Assembly (NCBI GenBank): GCA_024707305.1
Contig: JANPZZ010000016.1
Location: forward strand, 1-64,000
From: Chitinophagaceae bacterium
GTDB taxonomy: Bacteria > Bacteroidota > Bacteroidia > Chitinophagales > Chitinophagaceae
Direction of reading: 5' to 3'
DNA length: 64,000 nucleotides
Of this stretch, positions 1-7,630 are shown piece by piece. The notes below the pieces were generated by a model. It searched no databases, was not told where the DNA came from, and saw only the letters and a list, made by a program, of their open reading frames with translations. A program made the translations under genes and the position numbers. Within the stretch, counting starts at the first letter, position 1, and every line of letters begins with the position of its first letter.

Positions 1-55
1 AACAAAAATGTATGTTTTTCAACAAAAATAAAAATGAAATTGACAATTTTTTCGG
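1..55. other. AT-rich stretch before a composition break
   Basis: These bases are made of A- and T-rich runs. They change abruptly to GC-rich sequence near position 55. No gene is visible. The break could be a second artificial join or poor base calling at a read end. I found no adapter match here. Confidence 0.3.
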
Positions 56-1592
56 AGGTCTTCAAGCTGCCAAGTAAGTTCTGAGGCACAGAGACAGTGC
101 CTGAGAACTCGGCTGAGCATCCCGGCATGGTTTTCGCATTGCCCAAAGTCGGAGCCGTCTGGGCTTCCGACCACCACGGCCGGCCAGCGGTGCCGGGCGA
201 TTTTCGGAATGCGGCCGACGCCACGCATCCCCGGAGCCAGGCGGTCAACAGGGGCCAATGGCAGCCGAGCGGCCCGGGGCAGGGCGCCGAGCTCGGCCGG
301 GCCAGCTGACGCACTAAGCCCCGACACGGCCCTGGGAGCCCAGCCGTGAGTCGAGTTGCCAGTCGGCATGGGGCCCTCTGGAACCCATCGGGGGCCGCCC
401 GCCTGCAGTTGGGGGCTGCAGCCTGGGCAGCGCCTGCAGAGTTGCATAGGCGGCCTAGATATCGATCGGGATCACGGCGATGCCGAGGTCAGCCGAAGCG
501 GACGATCTGGCGGATGACATTCTTTGAACAGCGAACCCACCCGTCGGCTGCGGACCGAGCCGAGCAGCGGCGGCAGCGCCTGCCGTGGCCACGCCAGGCG
601 GCAACCGGTTCAGCTCGTGTCGATCTCGATGCGCCAGGCTTCTGTCTTCCGTAAGATGCCAGTGGAACTTGTTCATCTTGTTCCAGGCCATGATCTTGAT
701 GAGCTGGCTGACTTCGCCGCCGGTATAGAACTGACGCGCCACGTCGAGGTGCGACCCACGGAAGGCAAAGCCCGGCTCGTCGCTGATCACACCGCCCGTC
801 GGGAAGGTAAAAGTGTGCGGATACTGCTTGGCGCCGCAGGATAGGCGGTCGAGCGTAACGAGGCCATAGAACATGCCCTACTTTGTGGTACTGGCCGAAA
901 TGGCGCTGTTCTCGGTATAAAAGGAGAGTTCATAGGCTTCCGGGCCCATGCCGACCTTTTTCGGTGATGTGCACCGGCATGCCGGCTTCCGAAGCCGGAC
1001 GCACCAGCGCTTCGACGGCAAAGAGATCATGCACAAGGCCGGCAAAAGCGGCGCAAGGGCAGGGTGGTTGGCAGCTTCGCCCTGTGGCTGCAGGTCGAGC
1101 CCGGCCGGAGCAATGCCGATCTAGTCAAGCATGCGACCGACGGGCCGGAAGATCGAATGCGGCACGGCAGCTCAGGCCGGTACCGGGAATTTTGCCGTGC
1201 CCTTCAGCAGCGGCGAATTGTGGCCCTTGCCCTGGGTCAGCTTGGTCGGATGACGACGGTCTGGCAGCTCGTTTTCGAGCACGATATAGGCCGAATTGGC
1301 ACCGTCGCTCCAGTGGCGCAGGCCATAGGAGAGGCCGCGCGGAGGTCCAGGTCGCGCCGCCGCTGAGCACATAGCCATCGGGCGGCGCGATCAGGTGTGG
1401 TTGGCAGGCGCACCAGCAGCTTGCCGTTTTCGAGCGTCGCGGGTCGGACGCGCGGGCGGGACCGGAAAAGCCGAGCTGGAAAATTGGAAACGGGTTCGTC
1501 GCCGATATTGGTCAGCTCGGGCCCATAGCCGAGCGGCCCGCTACCTGCAGCGGGGGTCCAGGGTGTGGTACGAGGGAAAATTTGGCAGTCAT
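56..1592 (-). CDS. Beta-N-acetylhexosaminidase, GH20 family, frame broken many times
   Basis: GH20 enzymes release terminal N-acetylhexosamine from chitobiose and related glycans. In the piece read from 874 down to about 455 the GH20 core is clear: a segment like FRGSHLDVARQFYTGGEV, then KMNKFHWHLTED, then a strand like LGIAVIPIDI. The start I prefer is the ATG at 1592, reading MTAKFSLVPHPGPP. At least five frame changes split the gene, consistent with unpolished reads. The active-site Asp-Glu pair lies where the frame is too damaged to confirm. The last gene of a minus-strand locus with an RpiR regulator and ABC ATPase, it fits amino-sugar use. Its 3' end runs into the composition break near 55. 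Alphaproteobacterial in character, it does not belong with the Bacteroidota genes downstream. Confidence 0.6.
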
Positions 1593-1679
1593 TTGCTTCT
1601 CGTTTAGTAAAGGGCGCCGCGCAACCGATGCCGTGTCGATGGATGGCTGCGGACTGAGGTCCGGGATGAGGGTCAGTCC

Positions 1680-2539
1680 CCGAGGGGCTACCGTCGTCGC
1701 CGTCACGATTGACGACGAGCTGATGTTTTATGCGGCGCATACTGGCGACAGCCGATGGGCCGACGGGTGGCAACGGTCTGGGCGAGTACGTCGACCGTGG
1801 CGAGAAAGGCGTAGCGACCGGGCGTTGGCCGCAGGATATCGGCATTTTTCGTGCTGGCCAGTTGACCGGCAGCAGGATCGTCGGACTGCGCCGAAACCAT
1901 CGGCGCGAGCGCGTGGCAAACTCCACGCGCGTCAGCCCATATTCGCCAGCAACGGTCAGAGTCTCGGCGAGCTGCGCATTATTACCCACGAGGTTGCAGA
2001 AGGCGACGATCACCGTGCTCGGCGGAGCCGCGGCCACACGCATCAGTTGCAGCCAGGTCATCGGTCGAAGCAACCTTCAGACCGAGCCGGAAGAACGCGT
2101 CTCGATCTCCCGGCCATCATCGACGATGCGCCGCCCGAGCCGAACGAGAGAATAAAACTTCGGATTTGGCGATGCTCAGCGGCGCGTTCGACGGCGCCGA
2201 ATCGAGGTGCTCAAAGGTCTCGTAGATGACTGACCGCGGATGCCGATGACGCCCTGGGCAACTTCGTGCACCAGGAAGTTCGGCTTGCTGCGGGCGAAAA
2301 ATAGCGCTGGCCGACAGCGCGACCGGGGCTTGAAGCCGCACCTGAAATCAGCATAGCTGTCGTAGCCGAGGCGGCGGCAGAAGCGGGTCACCGTGCGGAC
2401 ACCTCGGTCTACGCGAGGGTCGACAATGCTCATTTTCGATCGGTGAGTCGACATCGGCAAGGACGATGTCCTCGTAGGTCCTCGTCTTCCGGCGGGAAGT
2501 CGTTCTTCTCGGTCTGCAAGAGCCGACGATGTCGAGCAT
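1680..2539 (-). CDS. RpiR/MurR-type transcriptional regulator, frame broken
   Basis: RpiR regulators join an N-terminal helix-turn-helix to a SIS sugar-phosphate-binding domain and usually control sugar or amino-sugar operons. Starting from the ATG at 2539 (MLDIVGS), the piece around 2350-2460 reads VTRFCRRLGYDSYADFR, the recognition-helix segment typical of the family. Around 1960-2070 it reads VGNNAQLAETLTVAGEYGLTR, the SIS-domain core. A later piece near 1750-1850 carries RYAFLATVDVLAQTVATRRP, matching the C-terminal SIS helices. Several indels move the frame. The 3' end (about 1680-1703) is uncertain. Position between the ABC ATPase and GH20 genes suggests it regulates this locus in response to a phosphorylated amino sugar; the ligand is inferred. 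Confidence 0.6.
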
Positions 2540-2564
2540 TTTCCTCTCCAGCGGGCCCTCGGGC

Positions 2565-3671
<1,107 letters not shown>

Positions 3672-3741
3672 TTTTGCGCGGCCCGGCACGAGTCTGAAGA
3701 GCGCCGCCCCAGGGGGCGGCGGCGGTATCAGGACTGAAGCT

Positions 3742-3854
3742 TTACTTGTACTGCTCGAGTTCCGAAGCGGCTCTCGAGGGCAGCCTGGGGTTCGGCAGCG
3801 CCGGTCACGACCGACTGAACCATTTCGATCATCACCGCCGTTCTGCAGACCGAT
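3742..3854 (-). CDS. C-terminus of a sugar-binding protein of an ABC transporter (partial)
   Basis: Reading from the seam toward 3742 gives AVMIEMVQSVVTGAAEPQAA and, after one indel, a tail ending SELEQYK before a TAA stop. This alternating Ala/Glu tail is typical of extracellular solute-binding protein family 1. Only about 37 residues are present because the molecule ends at the adapter seam. It lies directly upstream of the ATPase gene, as expected for an import operon. Confidence 0.5.
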
Positions 3855-3983
3855 AGGTGCTGAAGAAAGTTGTCGGTGTCTTTGTAGGTACAACCTAGCA
3901 ATACGTAACTGAACGAAGTACACGAAGTGCTTTTGAAGGCAGAAAGAACAGAGAGATGACTACAAACGGAATCGACAGCACCT
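3855..3983. other. Nanopore barcode-adapter-barcode junction (artificial)
   Basis: From memory of the native-barcoding kit: 3855-3862 is the flank AGGTGCTG; 3863-3886 matches the 24-base reverse complement of native barcode 1 with one mismatch at the last base; 3898-3919 matches the 22-base lower-strand ligation adapter beginning GCAATACGTAACTGAACG. After a degraded stretch, 3948-3975 resembles native barcode 2, with 18 identical bases at 3958-3975, followed by the flank CAGCACCT at 3976-3983. This explains the change in composition and gene style here. It is not biological. Confidence 0.93.
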
Positions 3984-3989
3984 ACCTGA

Positions 3990-4310
3990 TTCCAGATTGT
4001 AGCCCAATGTAAAGACGGTGTTGAAGCGATTGCCAAAGCCATAGAATTGCATCCGGATGTGATGTTGATGGACATCAACATGACGCCTATTAACGGATTT
4101 GAAGCCACCAAAGAGATCGTTGAAAAAATGCCTGATATAAAAATCATTGGTGTTTCTGCGAATAATCACCCCAGCTACGCCAATAAAATTCTGGCTTTAG
4201 GCGGTTGGGGTTTCGTCACAAAAAGTTCCCCCTTTGATGAATTGATGGGTGCTATCGTAAAGGTTTATGAAGGAGAAAAATATGTTTGTAAGGAAGTAGC
4301 GAGGGACTGA
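3990..4310 (+). CDS. Response regulator receiver domain (5' truncated)
   Basis: The visible protein begins FQIVAQCKDGVEAIAKAIEL and continues HPDVMLMDINMTPINGFEATKE. The phospho-acceptor Asp is in the LMDINM strand. The conserved Thr/Ser position is SANNHP and the conserved Lys is in GFVTKSSPFDEL. This is a CheY-like receiver of the NarL/FixJ type, cut at its N-terminus by the adapter seam. The product stops at ARD without the LuxR-type DNA-binding domain usually found after a receiver of this kind. The TGA stop is immediately followed by a heptamer repeat tract, so the 3' end may have been lost to repeat insertion or to a frame error. Partner kinase unknown. Confidence 0.75.
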   Translation, partial: FQIVAQCKDGVEAIAKAIELHPDVMLMDINMTPINGFEATKEIVEKMPDIKIIGVSANNHPSYANKILALGGWGFVTKSSPFDELMGAIVKVYEGEKYVCKEVARD

Positions 4311-4356
4311 TCGATGGTCGATGATCGATGATCGATGGTCGATGATCGATGATCGA
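4308..4356. repeat. Heptamer tract, YCGATGN family
   Basis: Seven-base units TCGATGG and TCGATGA run head to tail, starting directly at the TGA of the response-regulator gene. The same family occurs after valS and in both large arrays. Confidence 0.9.
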
Positions 4357-4372
4357 GAAGTGTTTTCACCTT

Positions 4373-4412
4373 TGCCGTTTGCCGTTTGCGGATTGCCGTT
4401 TGCCGATTGCCG
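4373..4412. repeat. Heptamer tract, TTTGCCG family
   Basis: Units TTTGCCG, TTTGCGG, ATTGCCG and close variants repeat with a 7-bp period. They are followed by a CTCATGCCTCACGCC-like trailer also seen near 59140-59160. The tract lies just upstream of the valS promoter. Confidence 0.85.
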
Positions 4413-4451
4413 ATTCTCATGCCTCACGCCTGACGCTTCACGTTTTCTGCG

Positions 4452-4487: not shown

Positions 4488-7104
4488 ATGGCAATCAGCA
4501 AGAACTTTGAGCATCAGGCGGCCGAAGAAAAATGGTATAAACACTGGCTTCAGAAAGGATATTTTCATAGTACTCCCGACGAACGTGAACCTTATACTGT
4601 TGTAATACCTCCTCCCAACGTTACGGGCGTATTGCACATGGGGCATTGCCTTAATAACACGATCCAGGATATTCTGGTTCGCCGTGCGCGTATGCAGGGC
4701 AAAAATGCATGCTGGGTTCCCGGCACCGACCACGCCTCCATAGCAACAGAAGCAAAAGTGGTGCACATGCTGCGCGAGCGCGGCATTGCCAAATCATCCT
4801 TATCACGTGACGAATTTCTCAGCTATGCATGGGAATGGAAAGAAAAATATGGCGGCATCATCCTGCAACAGCTAAGGAAACTGGGTTGCAGCCTCGACTG
4901 GGAACGTACCACTTTCACAATGGATCCACACTATTACCAGTCGGTGATCAATGTTTTTATTGACCTCTACAATAAAGGTTTCATCTATCGCGGCAAGCGT
5001 ATGATTAACTGGGATGTAAAAGCCCAGACGGCGCTGAGTGATGAAGAAGTAATTCGTCGCGAAACCACACAATCGCTTTACCATCTCCGTTATAACATTG
5101 AAGGAACGGAAGATTATATCATCATCGCAACCGTAAGACCTGAAACGATTATGGGTGACACTGCCATCTGTGTACACCCTGATGATGAACGTTACAAACA
5201 CCTCGTAGGTAAAAAAGCACTCGTACCGCTTATCAACCGCGCCATTCCCATCATTGCCGACGAATATGTAACGATGGATTTTGGTACTGGTGCATTGAAA
5301 GTTACGCCGGCTCACGATATGAATGACAACCAACTGGGACAAAAACACAACCTGGAAGTCATTGATATCTTTAACGACAACGGCACACTGAACGAAACTG
5401 CACAGATTCTCATCGGTGAAGACCGGTTTGATGCGCGCAAGAAGATCATTCCGATGCTGGAAGAAGCGGGCAACCTGGTTAAGACTGAACCTTATACCAG
5501 TGAGGTTGGCTATAGCGAACGCACCGACGCTGTAGTAGAACCACGCTTAAGCCTGCAATGGTGGGTAAGCATGAAAAATATTTCCGGACCTGCACTACAG
5601 GCTGTGGAATCGGATGAGATTAAATTCTATCCGGCCAAGTTTAAGAACCTGTACCGCCACTGGATGGAAAACATCAAAGACTGGTGTATCAGCCGTCAGC
5701 TTTGGTGGGGACATCGTATTCCCGCCTGGTATGATGCCGAAGGAAACTATGTTGTCGCGGCCAACGAAGCCGATGCAGCAAAAATTTACCAGGAGAAGTA
5801 TGGCAAAACTACATCACTTCGGCAAGACGAAGACTGTCTCGATACCTGGTTCTCATCCTGGTTGTGGCCGTTTGAAGTGTTTAAAGGTTATAGTGAACCT
5901 GGCAATGCAGATGTAAAAATATTATTATCCAACAAACACACTTGTAACTGCACCTGAGATCATTTTCTTCTGGGTGGCACGTATGATCATGGCGGGTTTT
6001 GAATACCAGGGGCAAAAGCCCTTCAACGAAGTTTACTTCACTGGTATCGTTCGCGACAAGATTGGCCGGAAGATGAGTAAACAATTGGGCAACTCGCCTG
6101 ATCTTTTAGGATTGGTGGATCAATATGGTGCAGATGCGGTACGCTTCGGTATCCTGATCGCCTCCCCCGCCGGTAACGACCTGATGTGGGATGAAAGCAG
6201 CAATGAGCAGGGTCTGCATTTCAATAACAAAATGTGGAATGCACTGAAGTTGGTAAAAATCTGGGAAGGACGCACGCAGGACAACCAGTCAAATGCACCC
6301 TGGTTCGCCGTTAACTGGTTTGAGCAGCGACTCCGCCAGGTACGCATACAACTGGATGAACTGTTCCGCGATTTCCGCCTGAGTGAAGCACTCAAAACGC
6401 TGTACACACTGATCTGGGACGATTTCTGTAGTTGGTACCTGGAGTGGGTGAAACCCGGTTTCGAGCAGCCAATTGACACAGCTGTTTATGAAAAAACGGT
6501 TTCATTCTTTGAAGAGTTGATGCAATTGTTACATCCATTCATGCCTTTCATAACGGAAGAAATCTATCACCAGTTGCGTGAGCAAAAAGGCGATATCACC
6601 GTGAGCCAGTACAGCACTACCGAAACACCGGATGAGCAGTTATTGCAAAAAGCAACATTCCTGAAGGAAGTGATTACTGCTGTGCGTGACGCAAGAACAC
6701 GTGCACAACTGAAACCTAAAGACACAATCCAGCTTTTTATACAAACTGTAAATCAAAAAATGTATGAAGGCACGGAATCTATTTTATCTCGTCAGGTAAA
6801 TGCAGATGAGTTTGCCTTCGTAAATGAAGCAAAAGACAACTGCATTAACCTGGTGGTTCAGAAAGATAGTTTCTATTTGCAAACCACGGTGGAGCTCGAC
6901 ACAACTTCGCTACGTGAACAACTGGAGAAAGATCGCATTTACTATATCGGCTTCCTTGCAGCCGTTGAGAAAAAACTGAGCAATGAGAAGTTTGTTGCTA
7001 ATGCCAAACCTGAAGTAGTGGAAATGGAACGTAAGAAAAAGGCCGATGCAGAAGCAAAGCTGAAGGTGATTGAAGAGTCGTTGGCGAAAATCGATGGTCG
7101 ATGA
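4488..7104 (+). CDS. valS: Valine--tRNA ligase (one frameshift)
   Basis: Class I aminoacyl-tRNA synthetase that charges tRNA-Val in the cytoplasm and edits mischarged threonine. The HIGH-type motif HMGH is at residues 50-53, after PPPNVTGVL. The KMSKS loop reads KMSKQ near residue 527. The zinc-free catalytic core, anticodon-binding domain and C-terminal coiled-coil arm (ending ...ESLAKIDGR) are all present. About 871 aa is normal for Bacteroidota. The frame breaks in the A-run at 5915-5919: removing one A restores [18 protein letters not shown]. The last codons and the TGA stop are themselves part of a YCGATGN heptamer tract, so the repeat has grown into the gene end. Confidence 0.96.
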
Positions 7105-7122
7105 TCGATGGTCGATGTCCGA
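7089..7122. repeat. Heptamer tract overlapping the valS stop codon
   Basis: TCGATGG/TCGATGA/TCGATGT units. The tract encodes the last residues IDGR of valS and supplies its TGA stop. Confidence 0.9.
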
Positions 7123-7140
7123 ATATGAAATTATAACGAG

Positions 7141-7166
7141 GGGCGGATGATATCCGCCCTTTTCTT
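7141..7166 (+). terminator. Rho-independent terminator after valS
   Basis: An 8-bp stem GGGCGGAT / ATCCGCCC with a GAT loop is followed by TTTTCTT. Confidence 0.8.
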
Positions 7167-7196
7167 ATTCAATCGGAGTGATTTCACATAACCACA

Positions 7197-7630
7197 TTTT
7201 TCACGCAGAGTGCGCCGAGGTCTCGCAGAGTGCGCCGAGATCTTTTCAGCGTTCAGGAAACTGCGACTTTTCAATTGAGTTCGAGGAAACATGACGGATA
7301 CGAACATTATCTTAGTTTCTTATTTTCAAATTCATTTTCACGTTTGCCGTTTGCCGCTTGCCGTTTGCCGTTCGCCGCTTCACACGTCTCAAAATTCGGT
7401 TTTCCTCAGCGTAATTTTCACGCAGAGTGCGCCGAGGTCACGCAGAGTGCGCCGAGATCTTTTCAGCGTTCAGGAAACTGCGACTTTTCAATTGAATTCA
7501 AGAAGGTGACGAAGAACAAACATTTTCTTACTTTCTTATTTACAAATACCTTTTCACGTTTGCCGTTTGCCGTTTGCCGCCTGCCGCTTGCCGTTTGCCG
7601 CCTGCCGCTTGCCGTTTGCCGGTTCACGCT
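7197..7630. repeat. Two tandem copies of a composite intergenic element
   Basis: Copy 1 begins at 7197 and copy 2 at 7415. Each starts TTTTCACGCAGAGTGCGCC, repeats the CGCAGAGTGCGC dodecamer once more, continues to TTTTCAGCGTTCAGGAAACT, and ends in TTTTCACG followed by a TTTGCCG heptamer tract (about 7335-7375 and 7555-7622). A diverged third copy lies at 29037-29228. No convincing gene is inside. The stretch separates the convergent valS and the 7634-10477 gene. Confidence 0.85.

Follow-up and report, generated by a model that had tools for sequence, protein, structure and literature searches.

Two native barcodes and a ligation adapter within a contig of a Chitinophagaceae genome bin indicate a nanopore sequencing and assembly artefact

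The first 3.9 kb of contig C4 in a Chitinophagaceae genome bin almost certainly do not belong to this bacterium. The stretch analysed, here called the window, comprises the first 64,000 bases of this contig (68,143 bases), its 5′ part being the contig start. Within it, Devosia-like DNA and the bin's own DNA are separated by parts of a nanopore library kit, and it is very probable (roughly 0.96) that the arrangement is a sequencing and assembly artefact in which two molecules went through one pore in succession, were recorded as one read, and in this form extended C4. The value of the case is as a warning against transfer claims, as the junction is artefact and not biology. Since foreign DNA joined during sequencing makes apparent gene neighbours across the seam meaningless, the window genes before 3984 are not to be attributed to the species, nor is the junction to be taken as a sign of transfer.

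Results

The initial annotation of the window had proposed a reversed barcode 1 with 23 of 24 bases, a 22-base adapter, and barcode 2 with its flank inside the contig. Comparison of 3855-3983 with native-barcode and adapter sequences found each of these parts at the position claimed (Table 1). Read from left to right, the parts have the order of a read end (flank and barcode, both reversed, then the adapter end) and next that of a read start (barcode, flank), so that an exact adapter lies in the contig interior with NB01 reversed before it and NB02 forward after it, each with its kit flank. Base 3855 is common to the AGGTGCTG flank and the Devosia homology. Both adapter strands are printed in PMC7490894 and agree with the letters used, and NB01 and NB02 are printed with their AAGGTTAA/CAGCACCT flanks in PMC10593777.

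When up to three mismatches were allowed, the adapter was found in none of 100 dinucleotide shuffles of the window, and the copy in the window was the only ungapped one in the 3.86 Mb bin, this pattern being blind to a copy at the end of contig C19 that carries indels. In gapped alignments, the composite NB01 tail unit (3856-3919) scored 103 of 124, the best of 300 randomly drawn window pieces reaching 28, and NB02 with its flank scored 55, compared with a maximum of 25 in 300 such pieces. Among the 12 native barcodes tried, only reversed NB01 (46 of 48) and forward NB02 (39 of 48) were strong here, the next best reaching 23. The 32 bases between the adapter and NB02 resembled the start adapter no better than chance (119 of 1000 shuffles reached its score), and the same was true of the end adapter (339 of 1000). 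They may represent a poorly called start adapter together with the front flank of a second molecule, a reading that their position and length fit.

Table 1. Features at the start of contig C4 and on both sides of the seam (positions in the window).
Position	Strand	Feature	Evidence
1-407	.	Outermost part of the foreign tail	Without homologue in the plasmids or Devosia loci compared
408-3855	-	Devosia-like DNA with many frame breaks; genes for a solute-binding protein (end), a MalK/UgpC-type ABC ATPase, an RpiR-type regulator and a GH20 enzyme (cut)	Collinear with Devosia MAG locus L075, 81% over 3580 columns
3855-3862	+	Outer native-barcode flank, reverse complement (AGGTGCTG)	8/8 ungapped; flank printed in PMC10593777
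3863-3886	-	Native barcode NB01, reverse complement, as at a read 3′ end	23/24 ungapped
3887-3897	+	Degraded inner flank (TTAACCT-like), leading into the adapter	Gapped alignment
3898-3919	+	Nanopore ligation adapter, read-end strand, 22 bases	22/22; letters as in PMC7490894
3920-3951	.	32-base stretch between adapter end and NB02	Fits no kit part above chance
3952-3975	+	Native barcode NB02, forward, as at a read 5′ end	22/24
3976-3983	+	Outer flank of NB02 (CAGCACCT)	8/8
3984-4313	+	Response-regulator gene, first 28 residues missing at the seam	Match to congener protein
4488-7104	+	valS, frame break near 5916-5957	Same neighbour as in congener

Left of the kit sequences, identity over 408-3855 was highest with L075 (Devosia sp. 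BIN32), followed by two further Devosia loci at 75% (L076) and 74% (L077); L078 and L079 matched piecewise, and L080 is a short contig covering part of the stretch. The matching genes of L075 were identified by Pfam as encoding a solute-binding protein, an ABC ATPase with a MalK OB domain, an RpiR-type regulator and a GH20 enzyme. When genome contigs were scanned with the GH20 fragment, the best six of at least 80 loci were all Devosia. Homology stops at 3855 in four of the six loci (L075, L076, L078 and L079) and at 3835 in L077, L080 being too short to reach this base. The Devosia-like stretch is present once in the bin, and GC content per kb is 59-64% up to 4000 and 38-50% beyond. The outermost bases, 1-407, had no match in the plasmid collection, and an alignment of 61-407 to five Devosia loci scored no better than shuffles, the neighbouring 408-807 scoring 468-546. 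This part is possibly a low-quality read start or a further join.

Right of the kit sequences, 3987-4313 corresponds at 71%, with two TGA codons read through, to residues 29-137 of an intact 141-residue response regulator in G001, a member of the same genus, and translated similarity begins at 3990 in the congeners L070 and L071. With residue 29 as the first one present in the window, encoded from base 3987, host DNA begins right after CAGCACCT, inside a gene. In G001 the intact response regulator stands directly before valS, and both genes are whole. The right side is probably of Bacteroidota origin because the best three matches of valS among 273 plasmid records are Parabacteroides, Bacteroides and Phocaeicola (60-64%), the remainder of the best eight lying at 49-52%. 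A 947-residue protein of the right part had no match in the plasmid collection and eight right-part proteins had none in 80 genome-contig loci, neither result having a bearing on taxonomy, and of six right-part proteins compared with NCBIfam two had no match and the other four lay far below the cut-off. The next upstream gene of the congener had no match in the bin, in a type of search in which an empty answer shows nothing. Short tandem arrays flank valS on both sides (4308-4415 and 7090-7621), mostly with 7-base periods (TGATCGA, TTTGCCG, CGTTTGC).

The kit sequences were originally described as lying between two unrelated genomes, and this agrees with the comparisons above: Devosia and Bacteroidota represent different phyla, and the DNA of each breaks off at a kit flank. 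As a measure of sequence errors, gaps of a length not a multiple of three were counted per kb of aligned columns. The left part had 25.7, 25.4 and 27.4 such gaps per kb against L075, L076 and L077, which are relatives at 74-81% identity and not its own species, compared with 3.7, 6.6 and 2.5 per kb when L076, L077 and L078 were each aligned with L075 in this region. The right part had 9.5, 6.9 and 11.8 per kb against L070, L071 and the family member L072, its controls being 3.8 (L071 against L070) and 8.4 (L072 against L070). Frame breaks on the left are thus about 4-10 times those of the controls, and those on the right are somewhat above theirs. The density on the left is what would be expected of one unpolished nanopore read and, taken with the contig-end position as a proxy for read support, suggests that one or few reads alone span the seam. 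With both breaks at the kit sequences, partners from different phyla and an error density like that of a single read, the earlier reading of the contig as a chimera is upheld.

The same evidence bears on whether a Devosia-like operon could stand beside the valS region in a living cell, as the product of a real transfer or rearrangement. Nothing speaks for this apart from the contig itself, which shows both together. Against it stand the synthetic kit bases between operon and valS region, the host response-regulator gene cut at the seam, the unpolished error density on one side, and the congener in which response regulator and valS are whole and adjacent. A genuine event of this kind is so improbable that it can be disregarded, and the original caution that transfer between the 5′ and 3′ parts would be a false claim was well placed.

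The position of the window at a contig start explains how one read could enter the assembly. The bin comprises 3.86 Mb in 26 contigs and is 90.3% complete and 4.4% contaminated. Both ends of all 26 contigs (52 ends of 4 kb, the right end of C19 being 3.6 kb and one end partly masked) were scanned with gaps for the 12 barcodes and the adapters. Kit sequence with a score of at least 30 was found at three of the 52 ends: C4 left, C19 right and C7 left. C19 ends (371440-371558) in AGGTGCTG, reversed NB02 with small errors, inner flank, adapter and poly-A, with NB02 scoring 72 and the next barcode 34. Over the 1.5 kb that precede this barcode, C19 agrees with the start of C9 at 98.6% identity up to the very edge of the barcode, and the genome therefore continues beyond the point where C19 breaks off. 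The C19 end has the appearance of an untrimmed read end kept as a contig end. The first 68 bases of C7 comprise a stretch resembling the start adapter (score 33 of 56) and, after it, a weak NB02 (25, the next barcode reaching 22); the sequence from base 69 onwards overlaps the C8 end at 97%.

Because C19 ends in NB02 and adapter where C9 continues, NB02 is likely the bin's own barcode, and NB01 probably that of another library. NB01 with its flank occurs once in the bin at up to three mismatches, adjoining the foreign DNA, and at one of the 52 contig ends when gaps are allowed. An ungapped search for NB02 found only the copy in C4 and missed the indel-bearing copy in C19; further indel-bearing copies of NB01 may therefore exist away from contig ends. 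These findings strengthen the earlier suggestion that the two molecules may come from two samples, and NB01 and NB02 would then mark different samples rather than two aliquots of one. If a single extract had been split over both barcodes, two organisms of the same community would have been joined, and both partners could indeed share one habitat. The barcodes found elsewhere in the bin argue against this: the other well-recognised barcode end, that of C19, carries NB02, as does C7 weakly, and the single NB01 stands beside foreign DNA. A common sample for both barcodes is accordingly regarded as unlikely.

Taken as a sequence of events, a Devosia-like fragment from the NB01 library and then a Bacteroidota fragment from the NB02 library would have passed quickly through one nanopore, and the signal, left unsplit by the software, would have yielded a single read spanning both. 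Such a read would consist of fragment 1, NB01 in reverse, the adapter end, a poorly called start adapter, NB02 and fragment 2. Having been assigned to the NB02 sample and left untrimmed inside, it would have lengthened the 5′ end of C4 by 3983 bases of foreign and synthetic origin. In-pore concatenation is preferred over ligation because the whole adapter end strand stands between the barcodes. NB01- and NB02-tagged molecules might instead have been linked chemically when adapters were ligated to the pooled library. Ligation joins after barcoding are shown in PMC5600009. There, as in PMC6156371, the sets found joined in the pore were combined only after adapter ligation, and the two papers thus demonstrate in-pore joins without showing these to be more frequent than ligation joins in a normal native-barcode pool. 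A complete adapter end strand marks where the sequence of a molecule ends, and direct ligation of barcode to barcode would, by reasoning, not require one. Several points nevertheless count against this account, among them that the expected start adapter ahead of NB02 is unrecognisable, 3920-3951 not being a clear one, that 1-407 is unexplained, and that the right part, too, exceeds its controls somewhat in frame breaks. Because of this unrecognisable start adapter, a ligation chimera keeps a small share of the probability, and in-pore concatenation is the preferred explanation. An assembler overlap of two untrimmed read ends was also considered and set aside because the end and start adapters are, by reasoning, complementary and not alike, so that the two ends share nothing in the orientation needed.

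Two further contigs of the bin begin with tails that look foreign when judged by composition. C12 has 57-70% GC up to about 24.0 kb (roughly 62%), then 35-53% in 250-base pieces, and from 27 kb on 42-46% in 19 sampled pieces; six frames from its first 20 kb were tested, and ZnuA, CobW-type and FecCD genes are among them. C23 has about 65-77% GC (roughly 70%) over its first 1.0 kb or so (1-1003), where a CDP-alcohol phosphatidyltransferase is encoded, and lower GC thereafter, and at the join DUF4124 and GH10 come to lie in one false-looking fused frame. None of the kit sequences tried was found at the changes in C12 and C23, and thus not every false join in the bin need share the concatemer cause. 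Ten pairs of contig ends in the bin share 0.1-1.7 kb at 93-99.8% identity, yet are unmerged.

Discussion

The kind of artefact described here is already known and documented. PMC5600009 describes eight reads that carry barcodes of both types, the signal of each showing a short dissociation; since the types were pooled only after adapter ligation, in-pore joins do occur, and the same source describes ligation joins too. In PMC6156371, finished libraries were pooled and chimeras across barcodes arose while sequencing was under way; reads that aligned to two genomes made up 0.052%. The C4 junction is like these cross-barcode chimeric MinION reads in having two barcodes in one read, joined after barcoding. 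Unlike the reads in both papers, the one behind C4 apparently landed in a genome bin and is known from a contig rather than from the read or its signal. The Barbell study (PMC13293122) counts 462 native matches in NCBI core nt, presents for a rapid kit a plasmid with two barcodes at opposite ends, and proposes that GTDB be surveyed. C4 shares with its cases a native flank and barcode left in an assembly, and differs from them in that two native barcodes and an adapter stand together inside one contig and join two phyla.

Since 90.3% completeness and 4.4% contamination pass the usual 90%/5% limits, the error could reach any user of the bin as a reference. It may be that this bin's assembly systematically lengthens contig ends by adding single reads of chimeric or foreign origin, that the resulting tails pass bin limits, and that similar tails make false neighbours and fusions in reference genomes; we would give this generalisation somewhat less than even odds. 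The tally for it in this bin is three of 52 ends with foreign tails by GC (C4, C12 and C23) and the three of 52 with kit sequence (C4, C7 and C19). If it were true, reference genomes would even contain falsely fused proteins, of which the DUF4124-GH10 frame where C23 is joined is an example. Barcode and adapter patterns offer a cheap screen for such contig ends.

Such patterns were also sought in other genomes. The adapter, with at most one mismatch, was found in one of 395 genomes drawn from the phylum, this being the bin itself, and a gapped native-barcode pattern was found in three of 394 genomes of the family, the bin included. The matches in the two other family genomes look like chance, with at most 10 of 48 for their inner letters against the 12 native barcodes tried and without an adapter after the barcode-like match (scores 12 and 8 of 40). 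In IMG/VR, the exact adapter occurs in 11 stretches (13 matches) of eight viral contigs, all from metagenome 3300049043. ATTGCT, the last bases of the start adapter, follows within 60 bases after 11 of the 13 adapters; one site lacks it and the remaining site has only 12 bases left after the adapter. The same motif was present in 101 of 2000 random 60-mers of those loci. These sites look like an unbarcoded form of the same join, and are likely concatemers in viral reference contigs.
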